Origin: Cordylochernes scorpioides
Lineage: Eukaryota > Arthropoda > Arachnida > Pseudoscorpiones > Chernetidae
NCBI GenBank assembly: GCA_030710605.1
Contig: CP092865.1
Location: forward strand, 144,135,081-144,199,080
DNA: 64,000 nucleotides
Direction of reading: 5' to 3'
Shown here: one piece after another, positions 3,704 through 64,000 of the stretch
Layout: each line of letters starts with the position of its first letter
How positions within the stretch are numbered: position 1 is the stretch's first letter
The notes under the pieces: model-generated
What the model was told of the DNA's origin: nothing
The model's input: only the letters and a program-made list of their open reading frames with translations
The model's database searches: none
Made by a program: the position numbers and the translations under genes

Positions 3704-3962
3704 CCTATTCTAATAAATTGGAACTAAATATATATACATGTAACTACATCAGCAAAGTTGTTGATAAACAACAAGACACCAAAATAAGGAAAATACAGCT
3801 GTATCACCAACAGAGATGTGGGCAATAAATCTTTCATATTCAACTCTGTGTTCTACTGTGAATAACTATTCAAGGAAATTATCCAAGATGTTTATCAAAC
3901 TGTACAGTAACCCACAGTAAGTCCTAGATGTCAAGTTCAGGGGTTGTACGACACAATGTTAA

Positions 3963-4325
3963 ACTCCGCCTTTGCCGGTCTCAAACCCGGATGAAAGAGG
4001 AGGAGGAGGAGCAGTAACAAGCTTACTAAAAAACCTGGGCTCAGTTGGCCGGCTGATAGTACCCTGTAAGGGCTCCTAATCCAGGGATACAGGATGAGCA
4101 GTGTTTGTACCTCATGTTAGGAGCAGCTGCATATGGCATCTGTTCCTCATGTCAGAGGCGGCCATTTCTTTTGGAGCTAGTCGGCCTGCCACTGAGTAGT
4201 GCTCCCAGTCTTGATGACAAAGGCAGATGGCATTCTACTTCACCCAGTCATGATGGTTGTCAAACAGACACCATCAAGGGTCACAACTTGATATCCTAAT
4301 ATGATTGAGTGGAGATAAGAAAGAC
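3963..4325 (+). mobile_element. RTE-like LINE 3' end fragment
   Basis: The fragment starts CTCCGCCTTTGCCGGTCTC, passes GGGCTCCTAATCCAGGGATA and TAGTGCTCCCAGTCTTGATG, and ends GATTGAGTGGAGATAAGAAA. Four other copies occur in the window (35,845, 43,440, 51,805 partial, 55,470). The start resembles 3' regions of RTE-clade LINEs. No reverse transcriptase is present. Copy B repeats it at the equivalent place. Confidence 0.65.
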
Positions 4326-10441: not shown

Positions 10442-10495
10442 CAATGGTGACCTCAATATAACGTCCAATACAACAATGAAGAAACAAGAAGAGGT
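10442..10495. repeat. Aberrant unit inside array 1
   Basis: Between two normal units the sequence becomes GGTGACCTCAATATAACGTC, then CAATACAACAATGAAGAAAC, before resuming AAGAAGAGGTTCAAC. It adds roughly 22 bases to one unit and is the only clearly non-repeat word in the well-ordered middle of the array. Confidence 0.8.
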
Positions 10496-16400: not shown

Positions 16401-16811
16401 TTGGACTCCATGGAGATGGGGAACAATGAAGTCCCAATACAACAAAGAACCAGGTTCAACATGTCTTGGACTCCATGGAGATGGGGAACAATGAAGTCCC
16501 AATACACCAAAGAACAGTTTCAACATGTCTTGGACTCCATGGAGATGGGAACAATGAAGTCCCAATACAACAAAGAAGAGGTTCAACATGTCTTGGACTC
16601 CATGGAGATGGGGAACAATGAAGTCCCCAATACACAAAGAACAGGTTCAACATGTCTTGGACTCCATGGAGATGGGGAACAATGAAGTCCCAATACACCA
16701 AAGAACAGGTTCAACATGTCTTGGACTCCATGGCAGATGGGGAACAATGAATGTCCCAATACACCAAAGAAGAGGTTCAACATGTCTTGGACTCCATGGA
16801 GATGGGGAACA

Positions 16812-17995
16812 ATGAAGTCCCAATACACCAAAGAACAGTTTCAACATGTCTTGGACTCCATGGAGATGGGGAACAATGAAGTCCCACTACAACAAAGGAG
16901 AGGTTCAAACATGTCTTGGACTCCATGGAGATGGGGAACAATGAAGTCCCATACACCCAAGAACAGTTTCAAACATGTCTTGGACTCCATGGAGATGGGG
17001 AACCAATGAAGTCCCAATTACAACAAAGGAGAGGTCTACATGTCTTGGACTCCATGGAGATGGGGAACAATGAAAGTCCAATACAACAAAGAACAGGTTC
17101 AACATGTCTTGACTCCATGGAGTGGGGAACAATGAGAAGTCCCAATACACCAAAGAACAGTTTCACCATGTCTTGGACTCCATGGAGATGGGGAACAATG
17201 AAGTCCCAATACAACAAAGGAGAGGTTTCAACATGTCTTGGACTCCATGGAGATGGGGAACAATGAAGTCCCAATACACAAAGAACAGTTTCAACATGTC
17301 TTGGACTCCATGGAGATGGGGAACAATGAAGTCCCAATACAACAAAGAAAGAGGTTCAAACATGTCTTGGACTCCCATGGAGATGGGGAACAATGAAGTC
17401 CCAATACACCAAAGAACAGTTTCAACATGTCTTGGACTCCATGGAGATGGGGAACAATGAAGTCCCAATACAACAAAGGAGAGGTTCAACATGTCTTGGA
17501 GACTCCATGGAGTGGGGAACAATGAAGTCCCAATACACCAAAGAACAGTTTCAACATGTCTTGGACTCCATGGAGATGGGAACAATGAAGTCCCAATAAA
17601 CAAAGGAGAGGTTCAACATGTCTTGGACTCCATGGAGATGGGGAACAATGAAGTCCCAATACACCAAAGAACAGTTTCAACATGTCTTGGACTCCATGGA
17701 GATGGGGAACAATGAAGTCCCAATACAACAAAGAAGAGGTTCAACATGTCTTGGACTCCATGGAGTGGGGAACAATGAAGTCCCAATACAACAAAGAACA
17801 GTTTCAACATGTCTTGGACTCCATGGAGATGGGGAACAATGAAGTCCCAATACACCAAAGAACAGTTTCAACATGTCTTGGACTCCATGGAGATGGGGAA
17901 CAATGAAGTCCCAATACAACAAAGGAGAGGTTCAACATGTCTTGGACTCCATGGAGATGGGGAACAATGAAGTCCCAATACACCAAAGAAGAGGT
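16812..17995. repeat. Dimeric (128-bp) higher-order stretch in array 1
   Basis: Units ending CACCAAAGAACAGTTTC alternate with units ending CAACAAAGGAGAGGTTC for most of this interval, with a few lapses (17,078, 17,786 and 17,978). Such alternation arises when pairs of units are amplified together by unequal exchange. Confidence 0.7.
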
Positions 17996-20900
17996 TCAAC
18001 ATGTCTTGGACTCCATGGAGATGGGGAACAATGAAGTCCCAATACAACAAAGAACAGTTTCAAACATGTCTTGGACTCCATGGAGATGGGCGAACAATGA
18101 AGTCCCAATACACCAAAGAACAGTTTCAACATGTCTTGGACTCCATGGAGATGGGGGAACAATGAAGTCCCATTACAACAAAGAAGAGGTTCAACATGTC
18201 TTGAACACATGGAGATGGGGAACAATGAAGTCCCAATACAACAAAGAAGAGGTTCAACATGTCTTGGACTCCATGGAGATGGGGAACAATGAAGTCCCAA
18301 TACAACCAAAGAACAGGTTCAACATGTCTTGGACTCCATGGAGATGGGGAACAATGAAGTCCCAATACAACAAAGAAGAGGTTCAACAAGTCTTGAACAC
18401 CATGGAGATGGGGAACAATGAAGTCCCAATGCACCAAAGAAGAGGTTCAACATGTCTTGGACTCCATGGAGATGGAGAACAATGAAGTCCCCAATACAAC
18501 AAAGAAAGAGGTTAACATGTCTTGAACACCATGGAGGATGGGGAACAATGAAGTCCCAATGCACCAAAGAAGAGGTTCAACATGTCTTGAACACCATGGA
18601 GATGGGGAACAATGAAGTCCCAATACACCAAAGAACAGGTTCAACATGTCTTGAACACCATGGAGATGGGGAACAATGAAGTCCCAATACAACAAAGAAC
18701 AGGTTCAACATGTCTTGGACTCCATGGGGATGGGGAACAATGAAGTCCCCTTACAACAAAGAAGAGGTTCAACATGTCTTGAACACCATGGAGATGGGGA
18801 ACAATGAAGTCCGCAATACACCCAAAGAACAGGTTCAACATGTCTTGGACTCCCTGGGGATGGGGAACAATGAAGTCCCAATACAACAAGAACAGTTTCA
18901 ACATGTCTTGGACTCCATGGAGATGGGGAACAATGAAGTCCCAATACACCAAAGAACAGTTTCAACATGTCTTGGACTCCATGGAGATGGGGAACAATGA
19001 AGTCCCCAATACAACAAAGAAGAGGTTCAACATGTCTTGAACTCCATGGAGATGGGGAACAATGAAGTCCCAATACAACAAAGAACAGTTTCAACATGTT
19101 TTGGACTCCATGGAGATGGGGAACAATGAAGTCCCAATACAACAAAGAAGAGGTTCAACATGTCCTTGAACTCCATGGAGATGGGGACCAATGAAGTCCC
19201 AATACAACAAAGAAGAGGTTCATCATGTCTTGGACTCCACGGAGATGGGGAACAATGAAGTCCCAATACACCAAAGAAGAGGTTCAACTTGTCTTGGACT
19301 CCACGGAGATGGGGAACAATGAAGTCCCCAATACAACAAAGAAGAGGTTCAACATGTCTTGGACTCCACGGAGATGGGGAACAATGAAGTCCCAATACAC
19401 CAAAGAAGAGGTTCAACATGTCTTGGACTCCATGGAGATGGTGAACAATGAAGTCCCAATGCACCAAAGAAGAGGTTCAACATGTCTTGGACTCATGGAG
19501 ATGGGGAACAATGAAGTCCCAATGCACCAAAGAAGAGGTTCACATGTCTTGGACTCCATGGAGATGGGGAACAATGAAGTCCCAATACACCAAAGAACAG
19601 TTTCAACATGTCTTGGACTCCATGGAGATGGGGGAACAATGAAGTCCCAATGCACCAAAGAAGAGTTCAACATGTCTTGGACTCCATGGAGATGGGGAAC
19701 AATGAAGTTCCCAATACAACAAAGAACTGTTTCAACATGTCTTGGACTCCATGGAGATGGGGAACAATGAAGTCCCAATACAACAAAGAACAGTTTCAAC
19801 ATGTCTTGGACTCCATGGAGATGGGGAACCAATGAAGTCCCAATACAACAAAGAAGAGGTTTCAACATGTCTTGGACTCCATGGAGATGGGAACAATGAA
19901 GTCCCAATACAACAAAGAACAGTTATCAACATGTCATGGACTCCATGGAGATGGGGAACAAATAAGTCCCAATACAACAAAGAAGAGGTTCAACATGTCT
20001 TGGACTCCATGGAGATGGGGAACAATGAAGTCCCAATACAACAAAGAACAGTTTTCAAACATGTCTTGGACTCCATGGAGATAGGACAATGAAGTCCCAA
20101 TGCACCAAAGAAGAGGTTCAACATGTCTTGGACTCCATGGAGATGGGGAACAATGAAGTCCAATACAACAAAGAAGAGGTTCAACATGTCTTGGACTTCA
20201 TGGAGATGGGGGAACAATGAAGTCCCAATACAACAAAGAACAGTTTCAACATGTCTTGGGACTCCATGGAGATTGGGGAACAATGATAGTCCCAATACAA
20301 CAAAGAAGAGGTTCAACATGTCTTGGACTCCATGGAGATGGGGAACAATGAAGTCCCAATACAACAAAGAACAGGTTCAACATGTCTTGGACTCCATGGA
20401 GATGGGGAACAATGAAGTCCCAATACAACAAAGAACAGGTTCAACATGTCCTTGGACTCCATGTAGATGGGGAACAATGAAGTCCCAATACACCAAAGAA
20501 CAGTTTCAACATGTCTTGGACTCCATGGAGATGGGGAACAATGAAGTCCCAATACACCAAAGAACAGTTTCAAACATGTCTTGGACTCCATGGAGATGGG
20601 GAACAATGAAGTCCACATACAACAAAGAACAGGTTCAACATGTCTTGGACTCCATGGAGATGGGGAACAATGAAGTCCCAATACACCAAAGAAGAGGTTC
20701 AACATGTCTTGGACTCCATGGAGATGGGGAACAATGAAGTCCCAATACAACAAAGAAGAGGTTCAACATGTCTTGGACTCCATGGAGATGGGGAACAATG
20801 AAGTCCCAATACAACAAAGAACAGGTTCAACATGTCTTGAACTCCATGGAGATGGGGATCAATGAAGTCCCAATACACCAAAGAACCCTTGTGTTTAAAG

Positions 20901-31619: not shown

Positions 31620-32676
31620 CGTATGTCCAATTAGTCATCTTGTGTTGTTTATGGTTTTTAATGAATATTTTGTCCTTTATTTTTCATTTTTTTCTTTCGT
31701 TTTTGCATTTTGTATTATGCCAGTACGGTTATACCATCAAAAAATTAAGGTAAGAGAGATAACAAAATAATTTTTTGAAAATAATTTTCATTTATTTCCT
31801 TCCCTTTAAATATTTGTTTACCAAATATGAGCAATATATTGCCCGTAGTTCACAGACTTCTCCCCCAATTTTTCATACCTTTTGTTAAAACTTGAATTAT
31901 ATAAAGTAATAATTTATCGTCTGTAAAAATTAGTTCGATTTGATATTATTGAAAATAACATTCCTCAATATTTCAAGTTTTTTTTTTTTTTTTTTTTAAT
32001 ATGATATGGGTGTGTATTAGTTTTACAAACCTCGGGTACTCATTTTGTATTATTGCATAATATCTATATTGATAGTATATTATTATATATTTCATAGCTA
32101 TCTGAAAATACCAATTTTAATAATTCTATTTTATGGTTGGAGTAATGTCATCCACTAAAAAAAGTATATTTAATATAAGCAGCAGATAGTATTAATAAAC
32201 AGATCTTTCACAATACCCTATTGTTTACATGTCATTGACTTATTTTAAATCTCTTTTAGAGAATCTTTATTTCATTAATTTTCTCACAGAAGTCTATACA
32301 TTCAAATTTTTTTTTTTTCAAATACTGAATAGCAAACTATATTGAAAAATACAAATTAATCCAATATAATAGCTTTATAAGTATTAATAGATATAATTTT
32401 TATCCTTTTTATGTTTAGAAAAAACAAAACTGGAGAAAAAAAGCAAATTTCTGAATTAAGGAATGTTGACATATATTTTAGCTATTCTCTGTTGTTTTCT
32501 AATATATAAAAATTCATTTTTTTTAAGTCTCATTATTTTCAGTAAATTTAGTGATTTCAAATTTTTTTTTATGCTCGAACTTTACTTTCTGGAACACCAC
32601 ATTACTTATGTCATTGGATCTTGCGGCCATTACTCTGTTCATGTTAGGTTTTTTTCTCAATTATAGTTTAGAAATA

Positions 32677-32826
32677 CAAGGTAATAAGAACAAATCCAAA
32701 TAAATAGTGTCTTTCGGTAACAGCATTGTTACCATCAGACAAATCCCCGTATTCAGTACTTTTGTCTGATGATGGTAACAATGCTGTTACCGACACTATT
32801 TATTTAGATTGGTTCTTATTACCTTG
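32677..32826. mobile_element. Palindromic element (intact in copy B)
   Basis: CAAGGTAATAAGAACAAATC to its mirror TTCTTATTACCTTG, with the loop AATCCCCGTATTCAGTAC. The flanks TATAGTTTAGAAA and TTTCTAAACTAT extend the inverted repeat further. Copy A keeps only the right half. Confidence 0.85.
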
Positions 32827-32932
32827 TGTTTCTAAACTATGAGAAAAAAAAACTTAACATGAACAGAGTAATGACAATAAGAGCCAATGATATAAGCAAT
32901 GTGGTGTCCCACTGAATAATGTTCTACAAACA

Positions 32933-33215: not shown

Positions 33216-33775
33216 AAACACATTATTGACTGTATTGACTCATCCATTGATAAGCTCTCCTCTTCCTCGGCAGACACCATCAAAAGTCTCAAGATTTACA
33301 AGCTTGATACCTTTTTTTTTTTTTGCTTATCCCTAGTACACGTGGTACAGGCCATGATAATCATGGTGGGTAGTTAGCGACTGCTTTTTACTGTAAGTGC
33401 ACCACATGTCTACACATGTGAAAAGCAGTTCGACTTTGCACTTACAAATGTGCCAGAGCCCCTTGATACCTTAATATGATTGAGTGGAGATAAGAAAGAA
33501 GATTTGGCAAAATACACATTATTGACTGTATTGACTCATCCATTGATGAGCTCTACTCATCCCCGGCAGACACCATCAAAAGTCTCAAGATTTACAAGCT
33601 TGATACCTTAATATGATTGTGTAGAGATAAGAAAGAAGAAGATTTGGCAAAATACACATCATTGACTGTATTGACTCATCCATTGATGAGCTCTACTCTT
33701 CCCCTGCAGACACCATCAACAAACTCTACAAGGTTGATACCTTGATATGATTGAGTGGAGATAAGAAAGAAGAAG
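33216..33775 (+). repeat. RTE-like LINE tail units, expanded in copy B
   Basis: Three to four units of about 137 bp with CACATTATTGACTG, GACACCATCAA and GATTGAGTGGAGATAAGAAA, against two in copy A. One unit is split by a SINE. Head-to-tail copies of only the tail suggest unequal exchange. Confidence 0.7.
33314..33462 (-). mobile_element. SINE insertion present only in copy B
   Basis: The SINE body with its A tail (T run on this strand) is flanked by the 10-base duplication TTGATACCTT at 33,304-33,313 and 33,463-33,472. The uninterrupted target (AAGCTTGATACCTTGATATG) is in copy A. The insertion is therefore younger than the separation of A and B, or is polymorphic between haplotypes. Confidence 0.85.
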
Positions 33776-34096
33776 TTTTTTTGGATTTATTCTTATTACC
33801 TTGTGTTTCTAATCTATAATAAAAATTTTATCTTATTATTTTAAAATTTATTTATTATTATTATATTATATTATTTATTATTATTATTATTTTACCTCTC
33901 TCTCTATAAGACACTTTACTTTGTAACTAGGTGTTGTCTATTTATTGTCTTTTAGCTGCTCTCTGGTAAGAAGACACTTCTCTCACAAAAGACACTTGGC
34001 TCTGGAGAGACTTGGTCTGATGATGGTGACAATGCTGTTGTCGAAACTTCACACACTAATAAATTATTTGGATTAGGTCTTATTTTCTTTTATTCT

Positions 34097-35582: not shown

Positions 35583-35844
35583 CCTATTCTAATAAATTGG
35601 AACTAAATATATATACATGTAACTACATCAGCAAAGTTTGTTGATAAACAACAACACACCAAAATAAGGAAAATACAGCTGTATCACCAACAGAGATGTG
35701 GGCAATAAATCTTTCATATTCAACTCTGTGTTCTACTGTGAATATCTATTCAAGGAAATTATCCAAGATGTTTATCAAACTGTACAGTAACCCACAGTAA
35801 GTCCTAGATGTCAAGTTCAGGAGTTGTACGACACAATGTTAAAC

Positions 35845-36210
35845 TCCGCCTTTGCCGGTCTCAAACCCGGATGAAAGAGGAGGAGGAGGAGCAGTAACAA
35901 GCTTACTAAAAAACCTGGGCTCAGTTGGCCGGCTGATAGTACCCTGTAAGGGCTCCTAATCCAGGGATACAGGATGAGCAGTGTTTGTACCTCATGTTAG
36001 GAGCAGCTGCATATGGCATCTGTTCCTCATGTCAGAGGCGGCCATTTCTTTTGGAGCTAAGTCGGCCTGCCACTGAGTAGTGCTCCCAGTCTTGATGACA
36101 AAGGCAGATGCATTCTACTTCACCCAGTCATGATGGTTGTCAAACAGACACCATCAAGGGTCACAACTTGATATCCTAATATGATTGAGTGGAGATAAGA
36201 AAGACAACGT
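35845..36210 (+). mobile_element. RTE-like LINE 3' end fragment, copy B
   Basis: Counterpart of 3963-4325, ending GATTGAGTGGAGATAAGAAA. Confidence 0.65.
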
Positions 36211-40244: not shown

Positions 40245-40698
40245 TACAGTAGAACCACCTCTCTCTAAAGGATAACACCTAGTTGCAGAGCTAAAGTGGC
40301 CCTTTAGAGAGAGGGGTCCTCTTACTAGAGAACAGCTAAGTGGTAAAAATAGTTAATTTTGGTGATTAAAACTGTCCTTTGTATAAAAACAAGGTAATAA
40401 GACCAAATACAAAATAGATAGTGTGTGACATTTCAGTAACAGCATTGTCACCATCAGACAAAAGTATTACATTATTAAAAAAATCACAGCATGTTTTTAA
40501 ATAGTTTCTCATTCAGTGCTTTTGTCTAATGATGGTCTAATAATAATAATGCTGCTGTTACCAAAATGTCACACACTATTTATTTATATGGTCTTATTAC
40601 TTTGTGTTTCTAATCTATAATCCAAATCGTACCTTATCATGTCCTTTGTATAGTTTTCCACTTGCAAGGGGGGAGTTCTTCAGGGAGGTTCTAGTGTA
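40245..40698. mobile_element. CAGTAGAAC MITE interrupted by a palindromic element
   Basis: TACAGTAGAACCACCTCTCT at the left and GGGAGGTTCTAGTGTA at the right. The MITE is split at GTCCTTTGTATA by the element at 40,386-40,639, so the palindromic element is the younger of the two. Confidence 0.85.
40386..40639. mobile_element. Palindromic element with 13-bp target duplication
   Basis: Left arm AAACAAGGTAATAAGACCAA, loop of about 70 bp, right arm and the tail TTTCTAATCTATAATCCAAA through CCTTATCA. The 13 bases TGTCCTTTGTATA stand immediately on both sides (40,373-40,385 and 40,640-40,652). The host MITE reads through if one copy is removed, so the insertion borders are certain. Confidence 0.9.
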
Positions 40699-43439: not shown

Positions 43440-43768
43440 CACCCTATCTTTCCACCTTTGCCAGTCCCAAGCCTGGATGGAAAGGAGAAAGGGGAGCAGT
43501 AACAAGCTCACTAAAAAACCTGGGTTCAGCTGGCCTGGCTGATAGTACTTTGTAAGGGCTCCTAATCCAGGGATACAGGATGAGCAGCGTCTGTACTCCA
43601 TATTAGGAGTGGCTGTACATGGCATCTGTTCCTCATGTCAGAGGCGGCCATTTCATATTGGAGATAAAGTCAGTGGCTTGTTACTGAGTAGTGCTCCCAG
43701 TCTTAATGACAAAGACAGACACATTGTACTTCACCCAGTCATGATGGTTGTCAAATCACCTTCTGCCT
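43440..43768 (+). mobile_element. RTE-like LINE 3' end fragment, diverged
   Basis: Begins near CCTTTGCCAGTCCCAAGCC, passes GGGCTCCTAATCCAGGGATA, and ends at CACCCAGTCATGATGGTTGT without the terminal AAG-rich tail. Confidence 0.6.
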
Positions 43769-43943
43769 CTCTCTTTTCTTTATTCTAAAACCTCTTCTAT
43801 TTTGGAGACTGTACTGGTTGGTTTCTAGATAAACACAGTAATACCCAAAAACATACACCAGGGTGGTGGTACTTAGCAATGTCAGTGATACCAAGTAAAA
43901 TCACAGCAGACCAAGCTAGAATTAAGACATTACAGTTATTTGA

Positions 43944-44170
43944 TAAAGCACAATTTTGATTAAAGATCCAAGAAAATAAAGACCTAATCCAAATAAATTG
44001 ATAGTGTGTGATGTTTCGGCAACAGCGTAGTTACCATCATCAGACAAAATAATAATTTATTCTTTATTTAAAATAATGATTTATTCTTTTGTCTGATGAT
44101 GGTAACAACGCTGTTACCGAAACGTCACACACTATTAATTTATTTAGATTAGATCATATTTTCTTGCATT
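43944..44170. mobile_element. Palindromic element, variant subfamily, minus orientation
   Basis: The one-sided tail is on the left (TAAAGCACAATTTTGATTAA), then the arms AAGACCTAATCCAAATAAAT and its mirror ending ATTTTCTTGC. AGTTATTTGA occurs on both sides (43,934-43,943 and 44,171-44,180), a likely target duplication. Confidence 0.85.
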
Positions 44171-44253
44171 AGTTATTTGAAAACTATTTTTTGGTATTTG
44201 TATTTAAGGAAACAATAAAGACCTAAACTTTGATAACTTGAGTTAGATATGAA

Positions 44254-49780: not shown

Positions 49781-50178
49781 TTTGAATGTCCATATGGTCT
49801 GGCACTCGCTGGAGTTGGAACCAGCTTCTGAAGGTGGATGGACCTACTATTGGATTAATGGCATGTGGAACACAAAACACCACATTGTTCTTCCCACACA
49901 TACCACAATGAATTCTCAACACCCTCATATTACATTTGTGGATCATCTTGAGAAAGAAACCAGCCAACAACTTTAAAACATCAAAAAGATCCCGGGTTAA
50001 ATTTCTTGGACCATTTTTATTTCTCTAGCTTTCTGGCTAGGCTAACATGGCCTTCATTAGGAGCAACTAGTACTATACCATCTAGTTACCTATACACTTC
50101 AAAAATTAAAATCTATAAATATATTCCAAAATTTTAAAACGGATATACATATATGACTATTACATTGATATTTGTTTG

Positions 50179-50386
50179 ATAAGGCACAATTTGGATTATA
50201 GATTATAAACACAAGGTAATAAGACCAAATCCAAATATATAGTGTGTGACGTTTCGGTAACAGCGTTGTTACCATCTTCAGACAAAAGTACTGAATTCAG
50301 TACTCATTCAGTACTTTTGTCTGAAGATGGTAACAACGCTGTTACCGAAACGTCACACACTATTTATTTATTTGGTCAACCTTGTG
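50179..50386. mobile_element. Palindromic element, minus orientation, 14-bp TSD
   Basis: Tail first (ATAAGGCACAATTTGGATTA), then the left arm CAAGGTAATAAGACCAAATC, a short loop with GTACTGAATTCAGTAC, and the right arm. TTGATATTTGTTTG (50,165-50,178) and TTGACATTTGTTTG (50,387-50,400) flank it with one mismatch. Confidence 0.88.
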
Positions 50387-50454
50387 TTGACATTTGTTTG
50401 TTTACAATTTTTTTAAAAATGCTCTTTTTGGATAATTTAAAATTATAAGTCAGG

Positions 50455-50690: not shown

Positions 50691-51035
50691 AAGTAACAAC
50701 ATTATCTCTCTTCCTGAGTCATCATGAAAGCAATGGACAATTTGCCTCACCATCTCTAAGCTGATTTTTTTTTCTCTGAAAATAATGAAAAAAGGGTAAT
50801 ATAGTCAGAGAATAATTGTTGTAAATACTCTGTTGTTAGTTTATCAACTAAAATATTTGGTTACGTCATTACCCACATTACCATGCTTGTAGATTGGCAC
50901 TTGTAAAAGATTACTACATTTTGCATTCCATAGATTTTGTTAATAAATTATATTTAACTTAAAACTTTAGAAATGAACTTGTCTTCTATGCCAAGACAAT
51001 ATTAATAAAAAAACTATAAATTAGACAACAAAAAC

Positions 51036-51485
51036 GCAAGGTAATAAGACCAAAATCCAAATAAATAAATAATGTGTGATGTTTCAGTAACACTATTTAT
51101 TTATTTGGATTTGGTCTTATTACCTTGTGTTTATAATCTAGTGTTTTACCCGATTGAATGTTTGATTCAAATACTATTTGTTACAATTATAAATTGGCGC
51201 CTTAAATAAATGCATATATTAGTTAATAACTATAGCCTATGTGCTTTATCTGTCTATGTACTGTTGGCTTCCGTAGGCATCTCTTACTGGGAAAAAGAGA
51301 GGATTCCATTTAGTTATTAACTAATATATGCCATTTATTTAAGGAGCGACCCGCTCCAAGTGTCTCGCGTAGTGGTGGCGTGATCGTAGCCAACCAATAG
51401 GAGAGCGTCATTCCAAAAAAAAAGCAAGAGATGAGATGATGACGCTCGTAACTGTATATAGAATAATCCAAATTGTGCCTTATCA
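51036..51485. mobile_element. Palindromic element with nested insertion, 14-bp TSD
   Basis: GCAAGGTAATAAGACCAAAA to TATTACCTTGTGTTTATAAT, then foreign sequence (about 51,143-51,458), then the tail AATCCAAATTGTGCCTTATC. TAGACAACAAAAAC stands at 51,022-51,035 and again at 51,486-51,499, tying the two separated parts together as one insertion. Confidence 0.9.
51143..51458. mobile_element. Insert inside a palindromic element
   Basis: About 316 bp containing the inverted pair ATATTAGTTAATAACTA (near 51,216) and TAGTTATTAACTAATATA (near 51,311), and a GC-richer part (GAGCGACCCGCTCCAAGTGT). No coding capacity. The family is unknown and the borders are approximate. Confidence 0.55.
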
Positions 51486-51804
51486 TAGACAACAAAAACT
51501 AGACTTACAGTCCAACTTCTTCAATTCAACATACAAAGGAACCAGAATTTTCAGTTGAAAAATAAAAAAGTCAGTTATATATTAAAGAAAATAGCCTTAT
51601 TGGGATTTGATAATTAAAAAATGAAAGGGGATTGAATTGAAGAGGTTATATATACTGTACAACACAAACTTTAAATTTAACACAAGGTAATAAGACCAAA
51701 TCCAAATAAATAAATAGTGTGTGATGTTTTGGTAACAGCGTTATTACCATCTTCAGACAAAAGTACTGAATGTATATATTTGGATTTGGTCTCATTACCT
51801 TGTG

Positions 51805-51976
51805 GCTGCCATTTCTTTTGGAGCTAAGTTGGCCTGCCACTGAGTAGTGCTCCCAGTCTTAATGACAAAGGCAGACGCATTCTACTTCACCCAGTCATGA
51901 TAGTTGTCAAACAGTCACCATCAAGGGTCACAACTTGATACCCTAATATGATTGAGTGGAGCTAAGAAAGAAGAAG
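51805..51976 (+). mobile_element. RTE-like LINE tail, 5'-truncated, 8-bp TSD
   Basis: GCTGCCATTTCTTTTGGAGC to GGAGCTAAGAAAGAAGAAG, flanked by ACCTTGTG at 51,797-51,804 and 51,977-51,984. This shows the true 3' end of this LINE or its dependent SINE. Confidence 0.8.
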
Positions 51977-51989
51977 ACCTTGTGTTTAT

Positions 51990-52191
51990 GGATAGAATAA
52001 CTTTTTGATTATCATGACTATATTGCAATAAAAGAACAAAAAGGAGCTTCTTTTGTAGAATACGTTTATTCAGCTAGCTTTTAATGACAAGTTCTTCAGT
52101 GGGCATGGTTGAAGAACAATGTTGTTTAAAACCTAGCGGAATAAACGTGTTCTACACAAGAAGCCGCTTTTTGTTCTTTTATCACAATATA
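51990..52191. mobile_element. Second foldback family, 13-bp TSD
   Basis: Two arms of about 50 bp (AAAAGAACAAAAAGGAGCTT, GTAGAATACGTTTATTC and mirrors GAATAAACGTGTTCTAC, AAGCCGCTTTTTGTTCTTTT). ACCTTGTGTTTAT stands on both sides (51,977-51,989 and 52,192-52,204). 202 bp, no coding capacity. One copy is seen. Confidence 0.8.
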
Positions 52192-52454
52192 ACCTTGTGT
52201 TTATAATCTATAATCCAAATTGTGTGCCTTATCATTAAATTTAACAGTGGAAAAAGAAATACACCACCAACTACTAGGTTCATGTGTTTTGTATCTGGGG
52301 CAACATCTCCCCCTAATACCATGTTCCCACAGAGAATCCGTGACAAATGCTCTCCATGTATAACCTGACGGAAGAAACACTTCCATGGCATGAGTACAGA
52401 GAAGGGTAGATAGAAAGATACTGGGAAATATCTGATAGGTGCGTGTTGCTTCAT
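52182..52454 (-). other. Unidentified 90-codon open frame
   Basis: Minus-strand frame with RYFPVSFYLPFSVLMPWKCF. Part of it overlaps the tail of the palindromic element, so the downstream end is certainly not coding. A second frame over 52,250-52,440 (FLPSGYTWRAFVTDSLWEHG) looks at least as protein-like. No splice borders are convincing. Confidence 0.15.
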
Positions 52455-52507
52455 AACACAGCGAGAACTCTAAAGAATTTAAGATCCAAAATATAACCTT
52501 ACATTAG

Positions 52508-52647
52508 AAACACAAGGTAATAAGACCAAATCCAAATAAATAGTGTGTGACAATTCGGTGGTAACAACACTGTTACTGATATGTCACACACTATTTGGAT
52601 TTATTATCTTGTGTTTCTTATCTATATTCCAAATTGTACCTTATATC
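52508..52647. mobile_element. Palindromic element with perfect 15-bp TSD
   Basis: AAACACAAGGTAATAAGACC, arms with a short loop (GGTGGTAACAAC), tail CTATATTCCAAATTGTACCT. ATAACCTTACATTAG is duplicated exactly at 52,493-52,507 and 52,648-52,662. Confidence 0.93.
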
Positions 52648-52831
52648 ATAACCTTACATTAGTTCTTTTTATATAGAGCAATGAGAAATGATACAATTTG
52701 CCATGATTGGAATGGAGTAAATTTGGCCTTATTTATTTTACTCATTTGGAAACATTCTCATGAATATAGTTCGTCATCTTTGAACTTATCTGTGACTGAT
52801 GGACGAGATATTTTGAAAACCAAATTGGTTC

Positions 52832-54440: not shown

Positions 54441-54966
54441 GAAAGAGAATTAAACTGAAACTTCCTTGGAAGATTTTCCAATCAAATTTTCAACCAACAA
54501 ATGATGTAAAAAAAGTTTTTTTTAAAAATATTTTCATTTGGAACACTAATGTTGTTTCACACCACTTTAACCATTGGAGCAAGGAGGGAAAATACTGGAA
54601 AAGAGTTACCGGACATGAAAACCTTTATAAGAAATTTAAAACTATTTTTGACATGATGATTCTTTTAAAATAAATCAATCATATGTGTCGAGGTTAAATT
54701 TCTTATAACAGATGACCCGCTGATGCATCATATGAATACCTTTGGATCATTACTTTCAAGGGAGTGGATAAATAAATAATTACAGTGATTGCTTCTTTCT
54801 TCACTTATTTACATATGTTTTGATGATAGAAACTCACTCAGGGGGGAGGTGAATAACACAGGGAGAGGAAACTAATGTCAACAAACCACACAAACTTGTG
54901 TATTTACTTCTCCTGTCATTTAACATCAAACGAATATCTTCAAATGATAACACATAGAGAAAACAT

Positions 54967-55251
54967 ATAAACACAAGGTAATAAGACCAAATCCAAATAA
55001 ATAATAGTGTGTGACATTTCGGTAACAGCGTTGTCACCATCTTCAGACAAAAGTACTGAATGAGAAATTTTACCACAGCATGTTTTATAACTTGATACAG
55101 TAACTATTTAAAACATGATGTAGTAAAATTTCCCATTCAGTACTTTTGTCTGAAGATGGTAACAATGCTGTACAGAAACGTCACACACTATTTATTTGGT
55201 CTTATTACTTTTGTGTTTATAATCTATAATCCAAATTGTGCCTTATCACCA
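54967..55251. mobile_element. Palindromic element, full length, 9-bp TSD
   Basis: ATAAACACAAGGTAATAAGA, arms around a loop of about 100 bp that is itself palindromic (GAAATTTTACCACAGCATG and mirrored CATGATGTAGTAAAATTTC), then the tail TATAATCTATAATCCAAATT. AGAAAACAT is duplicated at 54,958-54,966 and 55,252-55,260. Confidence 0.85.
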
Positions 55252-55469
55252 AGAAAACATCTGTTTCTACACAGGTGATGTACCAATATCCCTTACTCTG
55301 AGGTCAATGGTGTGTATGACTGATAATAACTTTTAGTACCAACAGCAGTTGGCAAATTAGGATCTCCCTTTTGGGTTCAGAATTATCAATGCAATCTTCT
55401 AGGTACGGTGTTTCTGTTGTCCTCCATTGGAGAGAGATAGAGTGAACTACTACCATTAGGAATGGATCA

Positions 55470-55835
55470 ACTCCGCCTTTGCCGGTCCCAAGCCCGGATG
55501 AAAAAGGAGGAGGAGGAGCAGTAACAAGCTCGCTAAAAACCTGGGCCTCAGCTGGCCCGGCTGATGGTACCCTATAAGGGCTCCTAATCCAGGGATACAG
55601 GATGAGCAGCGTTTGTCCTCCATGTTAGGAGCGGCTGCACATGGCGTCTGTTCCTCATGTCAGAGGCGGCAATTTCTTTTGGAGCTAAGTCGGCCTGCCA
55701 CTGAGTAGTGCTCCCAGTCTTAATGACAAAGGCAGACACATTTTACTTCACCCAGTCATGATTGTTGTCAAGTCTCAAGCTCTACAAGCTTGATACCCTA
55801 ATATGATTGAGTGGAGATAAGAAAGAAGAAGAGGA
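55470..55835 (+). mobile_element. RTE-like LINE 3' end fragment
   Basis: CTCCGCCTTTGCCGGTCCCA to GGAGATAAGAAAGAAGAAGA. This is the most complete copy, including the CTCTACAAGCTTGATACC part also seen in the tandem tails. Confidence 0.7.
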
Positions 55836-56242: not shown

Positions 56243-56837
56243 GATTGTGCAACAAAATGTTGCTAATTGCTTGTGCCATCTGTCAGAATAAACATCAACT
56301 GTATTCGTTGATTTAGAATTCTTAATTAATCAAGAAAGGATATTTGACAAATTCTGGAATAATTAAAAATCAACAATTAGTTGATATTTATTCTGGCGGA
56401 TAGCACAACCCATCAAAAACTTTTTGTTGCATGTTCAACAGATTCTTTTTTTTTTATTCAGTTAACATTTAGTAGTGTTTTTTTTTTTTGGTCAATTTAA
56501 AGAATTGGATGCAATTTTTAAAGCCTTTGAATTTACACACACAAACACAAATATATATATAAAATCTTGAAAATTAAAAATAGTTCTCAACACCTAATGT
56601 AGAGTGTAGGTATTATGAATGGACAGTTGCAAGTCTTGGATGGGATATTGAAGAGGAATTCAGCCTGGCCAACTCCTCTTTGACATGCTCTCTGAGTTTG
56701 GATGTCTCACCCGTCTTTCCCAACTGACTGAAACAATCTTCCCCATCACTCTATTGACAAAGGGGTATTTGGCCTCTTCTAATCAGGTAGAAGTAATTAT
56801 GATTCAACACCTCTTATTTGGAATCCCCTACCATCCA
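56243..56837. repeat. Large duplication, copy B (right part)
   Basis: Colinear with 4405-4987, including the GCAACAAAA MITE (56,249-56,430) and the exon-like segment (about 56,620-56,788; the donor-like word here is AATCAG|GTAGAAG). It leads into array 2 at the same boundary word, CCCCTACCAT. Confidence 0.95.
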
Positions 56838-59284
56838 ACAAAGAACAGGTTCAACATGTCGTGGACTCCATGGAGATGGGGAACAATGAAGTCCCAATAC
56901 AACAAAGAACAGGTTCAACATGTCTTGGACTCCATGGAGATGGGGAACAATGAAGTCCCAATACAACAAAGAACAGGTTCAACATGTCGTGGACTCCATG
57001 GAGATGGGGAACAATGAAGTCCCAATACAACAAAGAACAGGTTCAACATGTCTTGGACTCCATGGAGATGGGGAACAATGAAGTCCCAATACAACAAAGA
57101 AGAGGTTCAACATGTCTTTGACTCCATGGAGATGGGGAACAATGAAGTCCCAATACAACAAAGAAGAGGTTCAACATGTCTTGGACTCCATGGAGATGGG
57201 GAACAATGAAGTCCCAATACAACAAAGAAGAGGTTCAACATGTCTTTGACTCCATGGAGATGGGGAACAATGAAGTCCCAATACAACAAAGAAGAGGTTC
57301 AATATGTCTTTGACTCCATGGAGATGGGGAACAATGAAGTCCCAATACAACAAAGAACAGGTTCAACATGTCTTGGACTCCATGGAGATGGGGAACAATG
57401 AAGTCCCAATACAACAAAGAAGAGGTTCAACATGTCTTGGACTCCATGGAGATGGGGAACAATGAAGTCCCAATACAACAAAGAAGAGGTTCAATATGTC
57501 TTTGACTCCATGGAGATGGGGAACAATGAAGTCCCAATACAACAAAGAACAGGTTCAACATGTCTTGGACTCCATGGAGATGGGGAACAATGAAGTCCCA
57601 ATACAACAAAGAAGAGGTTCAACATGTCTTGGACTCCATGGAGATGGGGAACAATGAAGTCCCAATACACCAAAGAAGAGGTTCAACATGTCTTTGACTC
57701 CATGGAGATGGGGAACAATGAAGTCCCAATACAACAAAGAAGAGGTTCAACATGTCTTGGACTCCATGGAGATGTGGAACAATGAAGTCCCAATACAACA
57801 AAGAAGAGGTTCAACATGTCTTTGACTCCATGGAGATGGGGAACAATGAAGTCCCAATACAACAAAGAAGAGGTTCAATATGTCTTTGACTCCATGGAGA
57901 TGGGGAACAATGAAGTCCCAATACAACAAAGAAGAGGTTCAACATGTCTTGGACTCCATGGAGATGGGGAACAATGAAGTCCCAATACAACAAAGAAGAG
58001 GTTCAACATGTCTTGGACTCCATGGAGATGGGGAACAATGAAGTCCCAATACAACAAAGAAGAGGTTCAACATGTCTTGGACTCCATGGAGATGGGGATC
58101 AATGAAGTCCCAATACAACAAAGAAGAGGTTCAACATGTCTTGGACTCCATGGAGATGGGGAACAATGAAGTCCCAATACAACAAAGAACAGGTTCAACA
58201 TGTCTTGGACTCCATGGAGATGGGGAACAATGAAGTCCCAATACAACAAAGAACAGGTTCAACATGTCTTGGACTCCATGGAGATGGGGAACAATGAAGT
58301 CCCAATACAACAAAGAAGAGGTTCAACATGTCTTGGACTCCATGGAGATGGGGAACAATGAAGTCCCAATACAACAAAGAAGAGGTTCAATATGTCTTGG
58401 ACTCCATGGAGATGGGGAACAATGAAGTCCCAATACAACAAAGAAGAGGTTCAACATGTCTTGGACTCCATGGAGATGGGGAACAATGAAGTCCCAATAC
58501 AACAAAGAAGAGGTTCAATATGTCTTTGACTCCATGGAGATGGGGAACAATGAAGTCCCAATACAACAAAGAAGAGGTTCAACATGTCTTAGACTCCATG
58601 GAGATGGGGAACAATGAAGTCCCAATACAACAAAGAACAGGTTCAACATGTCTTGGACTCCATGGAGATGGGGAACAATGAAGTCCCAATACAACAAAGA
58701 AGAGGTTCAACATGTCTTGGACTCCATGGAGATGGGGAACAATGAAGTCCCAATACAACAAAGAAGAGGTTCAACATGTCTTGGACTCCATGGAGATGGG
58801 GAACAATGAAGTCCCAATACAACAAAGAACAGGTTCAACATGTCTTGGACTCCATGGAGATGGGGAACAATGAAGTCCCAATACAACAAAGAACAGGTTC
58901 AACATGTCTTGGACTCCATTGAGATGGGGAACAATGAAGTCCCAATACAACAAAGAACAGGTTCAACATGTCCTTGGACTCCATGGAGATGGGGAACAAT
59001 GAAGTCCCAATACAACAAAGAAGAGGTTTCAACATGTCTTGGACTCCATGGAGATGGGGAACAATGAAGTCCCAATACAACAAAGAACAGGTTCAACATG
59101 CTTGGACTCCATGGAGATGGGGAACAATGAAGTCCCAATACAACAAAGAACAGGTTCAACATGTCTTGGACTCCATGGAGATGGGGAACAATGAAGTCCC
59201 AATACAACCTAAAGAATAGGTTCAACATGTCTTGGACTCCATGGAGATGGGGGAACAATGAAGTCCCAATACAACAAAGAACAG

Positions 59285-60093
59285 GTTCAACATGCCTTAG
59301 ACTCCATGGAGATGGGGAACAATGAAGTCCAATACAACAAAGAACAGGTTTCAACATGTCTTGGACTCCATTTAGATGGGGAACAATGAAGTCCCAATAC
59401 AACAAAGAACAGGTTCAACATGTCTTGGACTCCATGGAGATGGGGAACAATGAAGTCCCAATACACCAAAGAAGAGGTTCAATATGTCTTTGACTCCATG
59501 GAGATGGGGAACAATGAAGTCCCAATACAACAAAGAAGAGGTTCAACATGTCTTGGACTCCATGGAGATGGGGAACAATGAAGTCCCAATACAACAAAGA
59601 AGAGGTTCAATATGTCTTGGACTCCATGGAGATGGGGAACAATGAAGTCCCAATACAACAAAGAAGAGGTTCAACATGTCTTGGACTCCATGGAGATGGG
59701 GAACAATGAAGTCTCAATACAACAAATAAGAGGTTCAACATGTCTTGGACTCCATGGAGATGGGGGAACAATGAAGTCCCAATACAACAAAGAACAGGTT
59801 TCAACATGTCTTGGACTCCATTGAGATGGGGAACAATGAAGTCCCAATACACCAAAGAACAGGTTCAACATGTCTTGGACTCCATGGAAATGGGGAACAA
59901 TGAAGTCCCAATACACCAAAGAAGAGGTTCAACATGTCTTGGACTCCATGGAGATGGGGAACAATGAAGTCCCAATACAACAAAGAATAGGTTCAACATG
60001 TCTTGGACTCCATGGAGATGGGGAACAATGAAGTCCCAATACACCAAAGAAGAGGTTCAACATGTCTTAGACTCCATGGAAATGGGGAACAAT
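59285..60093. repeat. Internal duplication within array 2, first copy
   Basis: About thirteen units carry an ordered series of rare variants: CATGCCTTAG, CCATTTAGATGG, CAATATGTCTTTGAC, GTCTCAATACAACAAATAAG, GGAAATGG, GAATAGG, CTTAGACTCCATGGAAATGG. The same series in the same order reappears 3.9 kb later. Confidence 0.85.
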
Positions 60094-63000
60094 GAAGTCT
60101 CAATACAACAAAGAAGAGGTTCAACATGCCTTAGACTCCATGGAGATGGGGAACAATGAAGTCTCAATACAACAAATAAGAGGTTCAACATGTCTTGGAC
60201 TCCATGGAGATGGGGAACAATGAAGTCCCAATACAACAAAGAACAGGTTCAACATGTCTTGGACTCCATGGAAATGGGGAACAATGAAGTCCCAATACAA
60301 CAAAGAAGAGGTTCAACATGTCTTAGACTCCATGGAGATGGGGAACAATGAAGTCTCAATACAACAAATAAGAGGTTCAACATGTCTTAGACTCCATGGA
60401 GATGGGGAACAATGAAGTCCCAATACAACAAAGAACAGGTTCAACATGTCTTGGACTCCATGGAGATGGGGAACAATGAAGTCCCAATACAACAAAGAAC
60501 AGGTTCAACATGTCTTGGACTCCATGGAGATGGGGAACAATGAAGTCCCAATACAACAAATAAGAGGTTCAACATGTCTTGGACTCCATGGAGATGGGGA
60601 ACAATGAAGTCCCAATACAACAAAGAACAGGTTCAACATGTCGTGGACTCCATGGAGATGGGGAACAATGAAGTCCCAATACAACAAAGAAGAGGTTCAA
60701 CATGTCTTGGACTCCATGGAGATGGGGAACAATGAAGTCCCAATACAACAAAGAACAGGTTCAACATGTCTTGGACTCCATGGAGATGGGGAACAATGAA
60801 GTCCCAATACAACAAATAAGAGGTTCAACATGTCTTGGACTCCATGGAGATGGGGAACAATGAAGTCTCAATACAACAAATAAGAGGTTCAACATGTCTT
60901 GGACTCCATGGAGATGGGGAACAATGAAGTCCCAATACAACAAAGAAGAGGTTCAACATGTCTTGGACTCCATGGAGATGGGGAACAATGAAGTCCCAAT
61001 ACAACAAAGAAGAGGTTCAACATGTCTTGGACTCCATGGAGATGGGGAACAATGAAGTCCCAATACAACAAATAAGAGGTTCAACATGTCTTGGACTCCA
61101 TGGAGATGGGGAACAATGAAGTCCCAATACAACAAAGAACAGGTTCAACATGTCTTGGACTCCATGGAGATGGGGAACAATGAAGTCCCAATACAACAAA
61201 GAAGAGGTTCAACATGTCTTGGACTCCATGGAGATGGGGAACAATGAAGTCCCAATACAACAAAGAAGAGGTTCAACATGTCTTAGACTCCATGGAGATG
61301 GGGAACAATGAAGTCCCAATACAAACAAAGAACAGGTTCAACATGTCTTGGACTCCATGGAGATGGGGAACAATGAAGTCCCAATACAACAAAGAACAGG
61401 TTCAACATGTCTTGAACTCCATGGAGATGGGGAACAATGAAGTCCCAATACAACAAAGAAGAGGTTCAACATGTCTTGGACTCCATGGAGATGGGGAACA
61501 ATGAAGTCCCAATACAACAAAGAAGAGGTTCAATATGTCTTGGACTCCATGGAGATGGGGAACAATGAAGTCTCAATACAACAAATAAGAGGTTCAACAT
61601 GTCTTGGACTCCATGGAAATGGGGAACAATGAAGTCCCAATACAACAAAGAAGAGGTTCAACATGTCTTAGACTCCATGGAGATGGGGAACAATGAAGTC
61701 CCAATACAACAAAGAAGAGGTTCAACATGTCTTGGACTCCATGGAGATGGGGAACAATGAAGTCCCAATACAACAAAGAAGAGGTTCAACATGTCTTAGA
61801 CTCCATGGAAATGGGGAACAATGAAGTCCCAATACACCAAAGAAGAGGTTCAACATGTCTTGTACTCCATGGAGATGGGGAACAATGAAGTCCCAATACA
61901 ACAAAGAACAGGTTCAACATGTCTTGTACTCCATGGAGATGGGGAACAATGAAGTCCCAATACAACAAAGAACAGGTTCAACATGTCTTGGACTCCATGG
62001 AGATGGGGAACAATGAAGTCCCAATACACCAAAGAAGAGGTTCAATATGCCTTAGACTCCATGGAGATGGGGAACAATGAAGTCCCAATACAACAAATAA
62101 GAGGTTCAACATGCCTTAGACTCCATGGAGATGGGGAACAATGAAGTCTCAATACAACAAATAAGAGGTTCAATATGTCTTGGACTCCATGGAGATGGGG
62201 AACAATGAAGTCCCAATACAACAAAGAACAGGTTCAACATGTCTTGGACTCCATGGAGATGGGGAACAATGAAGTCCCAATACAACAAAGAAGAGGTTCA
62301 ACATGTCTTAGACTCCATGGAAATGGGGAACAATGAAGTCCCAATACACCAAAGAAGAGGTTCAACATGTCTTGGACTCCATGGAGATGGGGAACAATGA
62401 AGTCCCAATACACCAAAGAAGAGGTTCAATATGCCTTAGACTCCATGGAGATGGGGAACAATGAAGTCCCAATACAACAAAATAAGAGGTTCAACATGCC
62501 TTAGACTCCATGGAGATGGGGAACAATGAAGTCCCAATACACCAAAGAAGAGGTTCAACATGTCTTGGACTCCATGGAGATGGGGAACAATGAAGTCCCA
62601 ATACACCAAAGAAGAGGTTCAATATGTCTTGGACTCCATGGAAATGGGGAACAATGAAGTCCCAATACACCAAAGAAGAGGTTCAATATGTCTTGGACTC
62701 CATGGAGATGGGGAACAATGAAGTCCCAATACACCAAAGAAGAGGTTCAATATGTCTTGGACTCCATGGAAATGGGGAACAATGAAGTCCCAATACACCA
62801 AAGAAGAGGTTCAATATGTCTTAGACTCCATGGAAATGGGGAACAATGAAGTCCCAATACACCAAAAAAGAGGTTCAATATGTCTTGGACTCCATGGAGA
62901 TGGGGAACAATGAAGTCCCAATACACCAAATAAGAGGTTCAATATGTCTTAGACTCCATGGAAATGGGAACAATGAAGTCCCAATACACCAAAGAAGAGG

Positions 63001-63191
63001 TTCAATATGTCTTGGACTCCATGGAGATGGGGAACAATGAAGTCCCAATACAACAAAGGAGAGGTTCAACATGCCTTAGACTCCATGGAGATGGGGAACA
63101 ATGAAGTCCCAATACAACAAAGAAGAGGTTCAACATGTCTTGGACTCCATGGAGATGGGGAACAATGAAGTCCCAATACAACAAAGAAGAG

Positions 63192-64000
63192 GTTCAACAT
63201 GCCTTAGACTCCATGGAGATGGGGAACAATGAAGTCCCAATACAACAAAGAACAGGTTTCAACATGTCTTGGACTCCATTTAGATGGGGAACAATGAAGT
63301 CCCAATACAACAAAGAACAGGTTCAACATGTCTTGGACTCCATGGAGATGGGGAACAATGAAGTCCCAATACACCAAAGAAGAGGTTCAATATGTCTTTG
63401 ACTCCATGGAGATGGGGAACAATGAAGTCCCAATACAACAAAGAAGAGGTTCAACATGTCTTGGACTCCATGGAGATGGGGAACAATGAAGTCCCAATAC
63501 AACAAAGAAGAGGTTCAATATGTCTTGGACTCCATGGAGATGGGGAACAATGAAGTCCCAATACAACAAAGAAGAGGTTCAACATGTCTTGGACTCCATG
63601 GAGATGGGGAACAATGAAGTCTCAATACAACAAATAAGAGGTTCAACATGTCTTGGACTCCATGGAGATGGGGAACAATGAAGTCCCAATACAACAAAGA
63701 ACAGGTTTCAACATGTCTTGGACTCCATTTAGATGGGGAACAATGAAGTCCCAATACACCAAAGAACAGGTTCAACATGTCTTGGACTCCATGGAAATGG
63801 GGAACAATGAAGTCCCAATACACCAAAGAAGAGGTTCAACATGTCTTGGACTCCATGGAGATGGGGAACAATGAAGTCCCAATACAACAAAGAATAGGTT
63901 CAACATGTCTTGGACTCCATGGAGATGGGGAACAATGAAGTCCCAATACACCAAAGAAGAGGTTCAACATGTCTTAGACTCCATGGAAATGGGGAACAAT
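63192..64000. repeat. Internal duplication within array 2, second copy
   Basis: Repeats the variant series of 59,285-60,093 at a constant offset of 3,907-3,908 bp, about 61 units, with only a handful of differences (for example CCATTTAG against CCATTGAG). It reaches the window end and may extend further. Confidence 0.85.

Follow-up and report, generated by a model that had tools for sequence, protein, structure and literature searches.

One-tailed palindromic insertions in a pseudoscorpion genome point to two-sided priming of a Penelope-like element

The genome of the pseudoscorpion Cordylochernes scorpioides carries a large family of palindromic insertions that combine inverted arms, a tail on one side, and target duplications (TSDs) of variable length. 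As judged from their sequence, the palindromes are small dead-on-arrival copies of a Penelope-like element (PLE), and we propose, with a probability of roughly 0.8, that they would be made by two-sided target-primed reverse transcription of PLE RNA. A more specific version, in which the priming is obligately asymmetric, one strand starting from site 1 and the other from site 2, and the one-tailed inverted repeat is the normal product, appears likely at a somewhat lower level of confidence. If true, this would be an integration mode distinct from one-sided LINE priming, under which inverted pLTRs, the optional tail, and head-to-head copies would have a common explanation.

Results

Palindromic insertions in the window

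Within the analysed DNA stretch of 64,000 nucleotides (hereafter the window), an earlier sequence-only reading had named target duplications of 9–15 bp at seven palindromic elements (40373, 50165, 51022, 51671, 52493, 54958, and 43934). We found all seven in the sequence, and each element carries its tail on one side, as that reading had described: on the right in five, and on the left at 50165 and 43934, where the element is reversed (Table 1). Arms of about 80 bp had also been described; we found no fixed length, the 40 mapped TSD-bearing elements spanning 86–534 bp, and copies that retain ORF sequence reach 2–3 kb. Matches to the tail with at most three mismatches numbered nine in the window and zero in each of 100 shuffled windows. 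An automatic duplication test gave a score of at least 9 to four of the seven elements; the remaining three, read by eye, were missed because nested inserts and short or old duplications defeat the test. The insertion at 51022 contains a nested insertion of another repeat (about 51141–51464), and that at 51671 has one at about 51805–52190, as well as a TSD that overlaps the element start in part. The 43934 insertion belongs to a second subfamily (CTGATGA).

Table 1. Coordinates of the 40373 insertion, its sister insertions in the window, and the long head-to-head pairs examined.
Feature	Position	Strand	TSD	Remarks
Left TSD of insertion 40373-40652	40373..40385	.	13 bp, TGTCCTTTGTATA	
Left arm, 40373 element	40386..40506	-		Inverted, without tail, PLE 3'-end piece; site 2 (AAAACAAGG) inward to UTR ~106
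Right arm, 40373 element	40507..40609	+		PLE 3' end; UTR ~137 to site 2 (CTTTGTGTTT)
Tail, 40373 element	40610..40639	+		30 nt, one-sided; ends TTATCA = site 1
Right TSD, 40373 element	40640..40652	.	13 bp, perfect	
Sister insertion	43934..44180	-	AGTTATTTG(A), 9-10 bp	Left tail; other TSD copy at 44171
Sister insertion	50165..50400	-	14 bp, 1 mismatch (50165-50178 / 50387-50400)	Left tail
Sister insertion	51022..51499	+	TAGACAACAAAAAC, 14 bp, perfect	Right tail; other TSD copy at 51486
Sister insertion	51671..52246	+	TTAAATTTAACA, 12 bp, perfect	Right tail (ends 52234); other TSD copy at 52235
Sister insertion	52493..52662	+	ATAACCTTACATTAG, 15 bp, perfect	Right tail
Sister insertion	54958..55260	+	AGAAAACAT, 9 bp, perfect	Right tail; junction 23-mer unique in genome
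Long pair	C8:49.01 Mb		14 bp, perfect	One tail
Long pair	C12:84.05 Mb		12 bp, perfect	One tail
Long pair	C18:6.03 Mb		13-14 bp, perfect	One tail
Long pair	C11:79.02 Mb		12 bp, perfect	One tail
Long pair (L081/L087)	C8:61.14 Mb		None	Two tails; arms 3.2% apart

A further palindromic copy in the window (32630–32875) has no tail, and its inverted symmetry extends into both flanks (ATTACTCTGTTCATGTT...); it is possibly an insertion within a larger palindrome.

Genome-wide, the exact 25-nt tail occurs 19,717 times in 2.62 Gb on 24 contigs (reversed control, 0), and the exact 25-nt arm end 50,649 times. Of 108 unselected tails, 19 were exact; extrapolating from this proportion and the 19,717 exact tails, the genome would hold on the order of 100,000 insertions, which can be used as natural records of single integration events.

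Arms and tail correspond to the 3' end of a Penelope-like element

At locus L017, the right arm and tail directly follow an ORF whose last part carries RT-thumb and GIY-YIG-type endonuclease sequence; the GIY-YIG and PLE RT motifs were recognised by eye, and we take them to be such. A genome search with the L017 protein gave 39,228 first-look candidates and 141 scored hits. In L066 the open reading extends over at least 772 aa, and its protein matched a solved retron-type RT by phmmer (E 0.0038, residues 353–488), while a Pfam search of the PLE protein returned no relevant family. The element has the single ORF of the PLE class, with RT and a C-terminal GIY-YIG, the endonuclease part being assigned from motifs recognised by eye. 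In the PLE loci, the 3' UTR runs from the stop codon for about 236 nt to CCTTGTGTTT (site 2). Past this point some PLE copies stop and others continue for 30 nt to the end of the tail (site 1). In the tandem pair L065/L066, one unit leads through the pLTR and the tail to the next ORF, whose presumed start ATG stands 17 nt beyond the tail; the end of the tail is therefore internal to the element. Other features of the PLE class were also found, namely an inverted pLTR beside the element with a 30–40 nt tail at one end, tandem copies with a pLTR between ORFs (L065/L066; two of the 15 neighbour pairs are tandem), and variable TSDs in AT-rich targets (9–19 bp, A/T-rich flanks).

The proposal of LINE-type target-primed insertion made from the sequence alone stands as regards a retroposed, target-primed type and fails as regards LINE machinery, since arm and tail are the 3' end of a PLE with an RT and GIY-YIG-type ORF. 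As regards the suggested comparison of the tail with LINE 3' ends, the ORF seen joined to the tail is of PLE type, with no LINE partner among the tails examined. Exact tails with foreign sequence upstream are rare: two genome pattern searches for exact tails without family sequence upstream returned 18 places and 1 place. Roughly half of the 18 proved to be short members of the family itself, the remainder being other or nested sequence, and we saw no LINE among these 18; the partner was sought through exact tails, and a LINE with a diverged tail would escape such a search.

The arm also contains a candidate hammerhead core, CTGANGA-stem II-GAAAC-GTC, as a sequence motif. Strings of the form CTGANGA-N14..22-GAAAC were counted 111 times in the window and fetched loci, and the Rfam hammerhead gave no match in the window up to E 5. 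A microRNA gene was considered and rejected: the match to Rfam mir-2513 reached 78.8 bits, short of its gathering score of 89, and was seen on both strands of a perfect hairpin, which we take for a side effect of the palindrome.

Several other repeats adjoin or interrupt PLE sequence. A repeat beginning CTAGCCGAATGACCCGGGCAACGCCCG and ending GACGCTCGTAACTGT lies inside PLE tails at nearly one point (TAATCTA/TAATCC) at 51141–51464 of the window and in L037 and L056, as if it preferred this target. In L037 and L038, near position 1600, insertions resembling TA-target DNA transposons (by eye) lie in an A/T-rich PLE arm. In the flanks of L009, L010, and L012, a second, different PLE-type reading (CEQCPATYVGETGRSV, by eye) adjoins the palindrome, and the genome seems to contain more than one PLE family.

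TSD-bearing insertions carry exactly one tail

We mapped 345 arm ends in the window and 88 fetched loci, and their distance to the tail was bimodal. Among 114 inverted end pairs, 52 reached a duplication score of at least 9, compared with 1 of 332 in a null made from flanks of different loci. With repeats removed, 43 distinct TSD-bearing insertions remained at this threshold, and every one has exactly one tail (43/43). Many of the sampled loci had been chosen through the tail; a strict count that omits insertions reached via tail or similarity gave one tail in 22 of 22 (13 bystanders, 6 in PLE loci, and 3 in the window), these 22 being 24 minus L058 and L088:4642, both also reached by the tail search. 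The remaining 62 pairs, which lack a clear duplication and in which repeats were kept, comprise 35 with one tail, 20 with none, and 7 with two. Thus, none of the 27 pairs with two tails or no tail reached the TSD threshold, and 35 of the 78 one-tail pairs fell below it, a point against the two-sided model that we assume to reflect age, nesting, and mispairing.

Tabulated over the 43 insertions, the TSD measures 9–19 bp (median 13) and is perfect in 25, which bears out the earlier observation of variable duplications with one constant tail end. The other side had been described as ragged. Instead, it is mostly a second fixed end and not a random truncation: at the TSD border, the end without a tail falls between −3 and +5 nt of CACAAGG. 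The range of TSD lengths and the one-sided tail also agree with the view that these are not cut-and-paste elements. Terminal inverted repeats and a high copy number would suit a transposase-mobilised DNA transposon of the foldback or MITE type; the fixed-length TSD and symmetric ends of such an element were not found, and the termini belong to an RT-endonuclease element, which makes this origin negligibly probable.

In the flanks of the 43 insertions, A stands at −2 in 30 (p 1e-6) and T at +2 in 26 (p 1e-4). The two borders look like each other's reverse complement, a pattern that a single endonuclease cutting the two strands with one preference would leave; within the duplication, microhomology blurs the base preferences.

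The arms of one insertion resemble each other

Neighbouring PLE ORFs show the same architecture at a larger scale. Among the 141 ORF hits we counted 15 pairs of neighbours no more than 10 kb apart: 13 are head-to-head with their 3' ends outward, two tandem, and none tail-to-tail. In four of the five head-to-head pairs examined, we found exactly one tail and a perfect TSD (Table 1); the fifth, L081/L087, is read as two insertions. Two more TSD-flanked copies, L070 (1,950 bp) and L058/L088 (2,299 bp), contain ORF sequence and an inverted left part, which is interrupted in L058/L088.

The 3.0-kb palindrome at C8:49.01 Mb (L078/L079) self-aligns at 99.1%, with 10 mismatches and 16 gaps, each pair being counted twice. 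Its outer arms show no mismatch in 1,484 aligned nt, compared with 4.2 per kb for the nearest of 23 other PLE loci. Moreover, each of two 31-mers that contain private variants has exactly two genomic copies, one in each arm; for the first 31-mer, the common allele was counted 38 times. In this insertion, both arms appear to derive from one template. The sharp single-template test rests on this one palindrome, and L070 and L058 do not decide: the arms of L070 are identical, but other loci are equally identical, and those of L058 differ at 5 positions in 510 nt, about as many as against other loci.

The short elements were compared statistically. In 58 one-tail elements (45 columns; 3 of 61 elements with poor arms dropped), rare variants common to both arms numbered 12 against 2.9 expected on permutation, and 1 of 2,000 permutations reached 12. 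With second-subfamily-arm elements omitted, there were 8 against 2.5 (p 0.007). Assigning both arms to subfamilies by edit distance in the 61 elements gave 51 AA, 6 BB, 0 mixed, and 4 unclear; a crude string test found both arms to be second-subfamily in 3 of 7 such elements. Mean distances were 0.095 between left arms, 0.142 between right arms, and 0.119 between left and right, in 62-nt windows that partly cross junctions, so that some distances are inflated; this comparison revealed no side-specific arm lineages. Likeness of the arms could also be produced by gene conversion between them.

The two sides were probably made independently

Junctions between the arms were mapped on the UTR for 40 short TSD-bearing elements, three longer ones being left out. 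Eleven fall inside the inner 18-nt palindrome GGTAACAACGCTGTTACC, where their exact position is indeterminable. The other 29 elements have 28 distinct junction positions. Genome-wide, the junction 23-mer of the 54958 element was found once and that of the 40373 element at four places, the duplicated pair L004/L005 accounting for two of these, compared with 50,649 exact arm ends. The same junction position recurs in L001 and L004, which are inserted at different sites. In five insertions from among the 18 places with foreign sequence upstream of the tail (L041, which adjoins another copy, L048, L049, L052, and L053; TSDs 11–14 bp), the left arm is joined to at most 24–26 nt of tail, and these tail-only right parts consist of sequence absent from the left arm. 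L044 is not of this kind, as a short right arm is present. Together, the one-off junctions and the tail-only right parts indicate that each side is made independently of the other, with no inheritance of the hairpin as one block. Among the 29 elements, the tail-less arm is longer in 19, the tail arm in 9, and both are equal in 1, and the inner ends of the two arms correlate (Spearman 0.66). The palindrome appears to be made at integration.

These observations bear on two other explanations. The first is the retroposed hairpin RNA family suggested by the sequence-only reading, a SINE-like family in which the entire palindrome is transcribed and the transcript is then copied in one piece, beginning at the tail. 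It would give a one-sided tail automatically, together with variable TSDs and a fixed 3' end, and both the position common to L001 and L004 and the four places of one of the two 23-mers tested are in line with it. We nevertheless consider it very improbable and do not retain it, given that the sampled junctions are nearly all one-off, that template variants common to both arms are unexpected for a hairpin copied as a unit, that side-specific arm lineages are lacking, and that 2–3 kb coding insertions, with coding arms of 1.5 kb, have the same architecture.

The second explanation is antisense self-priming, the published proposal for head-to-head PLE repeats according to the portion of PMC3846280 available to us. 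Here, antisense PLE RNA or the first cDNA would fold back, the second arm would be copied from the first, and the hairpin cDNA would be inserted. Identical arms with common private variants would follow directly, as would the 11 of 40 junctions in the inner palindrome and the correlated inner ends, a correlation that would come equally from snap-back and to that extent counts against the two-sided model. On the other hand, the tail-less arm ends about 30 nt short of the tail near a fixed site in 43 of 43 insertions, for which run-off copying offers no explanation, the five tail-only right parts cannot be copies of a left arm that lacks their sequence, and either arm may be the longer one (19 versus 9 of 29). 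Self-priming is therefore an unlikely account, if a less improbable one than the hairpin RNA family.

A model of two-sided target-primed reverse transcription

Two-sided priming, the reading we prefer, builds on what can be read from the DNA itself: the PLE origin of arm and tail, the one-tail rule in our sample, the variable TSDs, the one-off junctions, and the single template of both arms in the one insertion open to a sharp test. The PLE protein would make cuts about 9–19 nt apart on the two strands of an AT-rich target, and each DNA 3' end would prime reverse transcription on PLE RNA at an internal site. One end would start at site 1, the end of the tail (...GTGCCTTATCA), and its partner roughly 30 nt further upstream, at site 2. 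Both minus-strand cDNAs would then extend toward each other, those of short copies halting after tens to about 150 nt, and would be joined by microhomology, bluntly, or with short filler, often inside the inner palindrome. Such an event would leave two PLE pieces head to head, as an inverted repeat that bears exactly one tail and is flanked by duplicated target bases; long cDNAs would yield head-to-head PLE halves of 1.5 kb from the same kind of event. Three parts of this scheme are inferred: priming from both strands, the placing of the two starts on opposite strands within a single event, and the way in which the cDNAs are joined.

In vitro work on a PLE protein from Anolis offers a partial precedent: in the text available to us, the protein cuts and extends both strands, with two internal RT starts bounding the tail, and the start site is alike on top and bottom strands (PMC11167929). 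Strict use of one site per strand would accordingly not be predicted by that assay, as far as the accessible text describes it, and this point argues against the two-sided model (PMC11167929).

Given the one-tail rule and the one-off junctions, what has long been a structural oddity can be framed as a testable model in which priming is two-sided and uses two start sites. For annotators, such palindromes in animal genomes may represent PLE debris, in place of MITEs, hairpin SINEs, or microRNA genes.

Discussion

In LINE-1 twin priming, the RNA is primed from both strands of the target, so that part of a single insertion becomes inverted; it is an occasional variant that inverts the 5' part and comes with poly(A). 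In contrast, the inverted product described here is apparently the usual outcome, with both starts near the same RNA site, giving a palindrome.

Among the closest known systems are Pen2a_Av and other Penelope elements of the rotifer Adineta vaga. The available portion of PMC3846280 describes an RT and GIY-YIG ORF, pLTRs, an added inverted pLTR, a 31-bp tail optionally on one inverted pLTR, TSDs of 8–10 bp, a palindrome at the inverted junction, and head-to-head order. Inverted pLTRs, one-sided tails, TSDs, and junction palindromes are thus already in print for PLEs (PMC3846280). As far as that portion goes, those elements are few and of low copy number, and antisense self-priming was proposed for them, whereas the present family has ends in the tens of thousands, most sampled copies lack an ORF, every TSD-bearing case sampled has one tail, and junctions are mostly one-off (PMC3846280).

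PAc, the Poseidon PLE of Anolis carolinensis, resembles our element, in the accessible text of PMC11167929, in its two internal RT starts bounding a 30–40 nt tail, its AT-rich targets, and a hammerhead core whose stem II lies just before the starts (here the candidate core CTGAAGA-TGGTAACAACGCTGTTACC-GAAAC-GTC). There, a start site of PAc lies 111–118 bp into the ORF, whereas the tail of our tandem copy ends 17 nt before the presumed start ATG, and no strand difference in start site is described in vitro, whereas we find exactly one tail per insertion (PMC11167929). Metazoan retrozymes, as the consulted part of PMC7229834 presents them, share non-autonomous repeats, hammerhead-type motifs, and duplications longer than 4 bp; they are tied to small circular RNAs, whereas ours are inverted repeats, each apparently from one event (PMC7229834).

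The one-tail rule and the same-template evidence look new. We found no report of two-sided priming in PLEs, of a strict one-tail rule, or of a single-template test in the literature searched, which left most subscription papers outside it, and the accessible part of PMC12910113 holds nothing on twin or two-sided PLE priming.

Other repeats in the window

A repeat dispersed over four places (55464–55518, 3957–4008, 35837–35888, and 43441–43493) carries a twister-like ribozyme motif of type P1 (GCCGGTCCCAAGCCCGGAT...). The motif scored 39.4 bits, below the gathering score, and similar stretches, some overlapping, were seen in 22 fetched loci; judged by this motif, the repeat may be an abundant ribozyme-bearing element. 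The window also contains a short 140-bp tandem array of 2.4 copies (33462–33779) and two arrays of one 64-bp satellite with a strong A-over-T skew, at 4988–20885 (about 248 copies) and 56836–64000 (about 112 copies).
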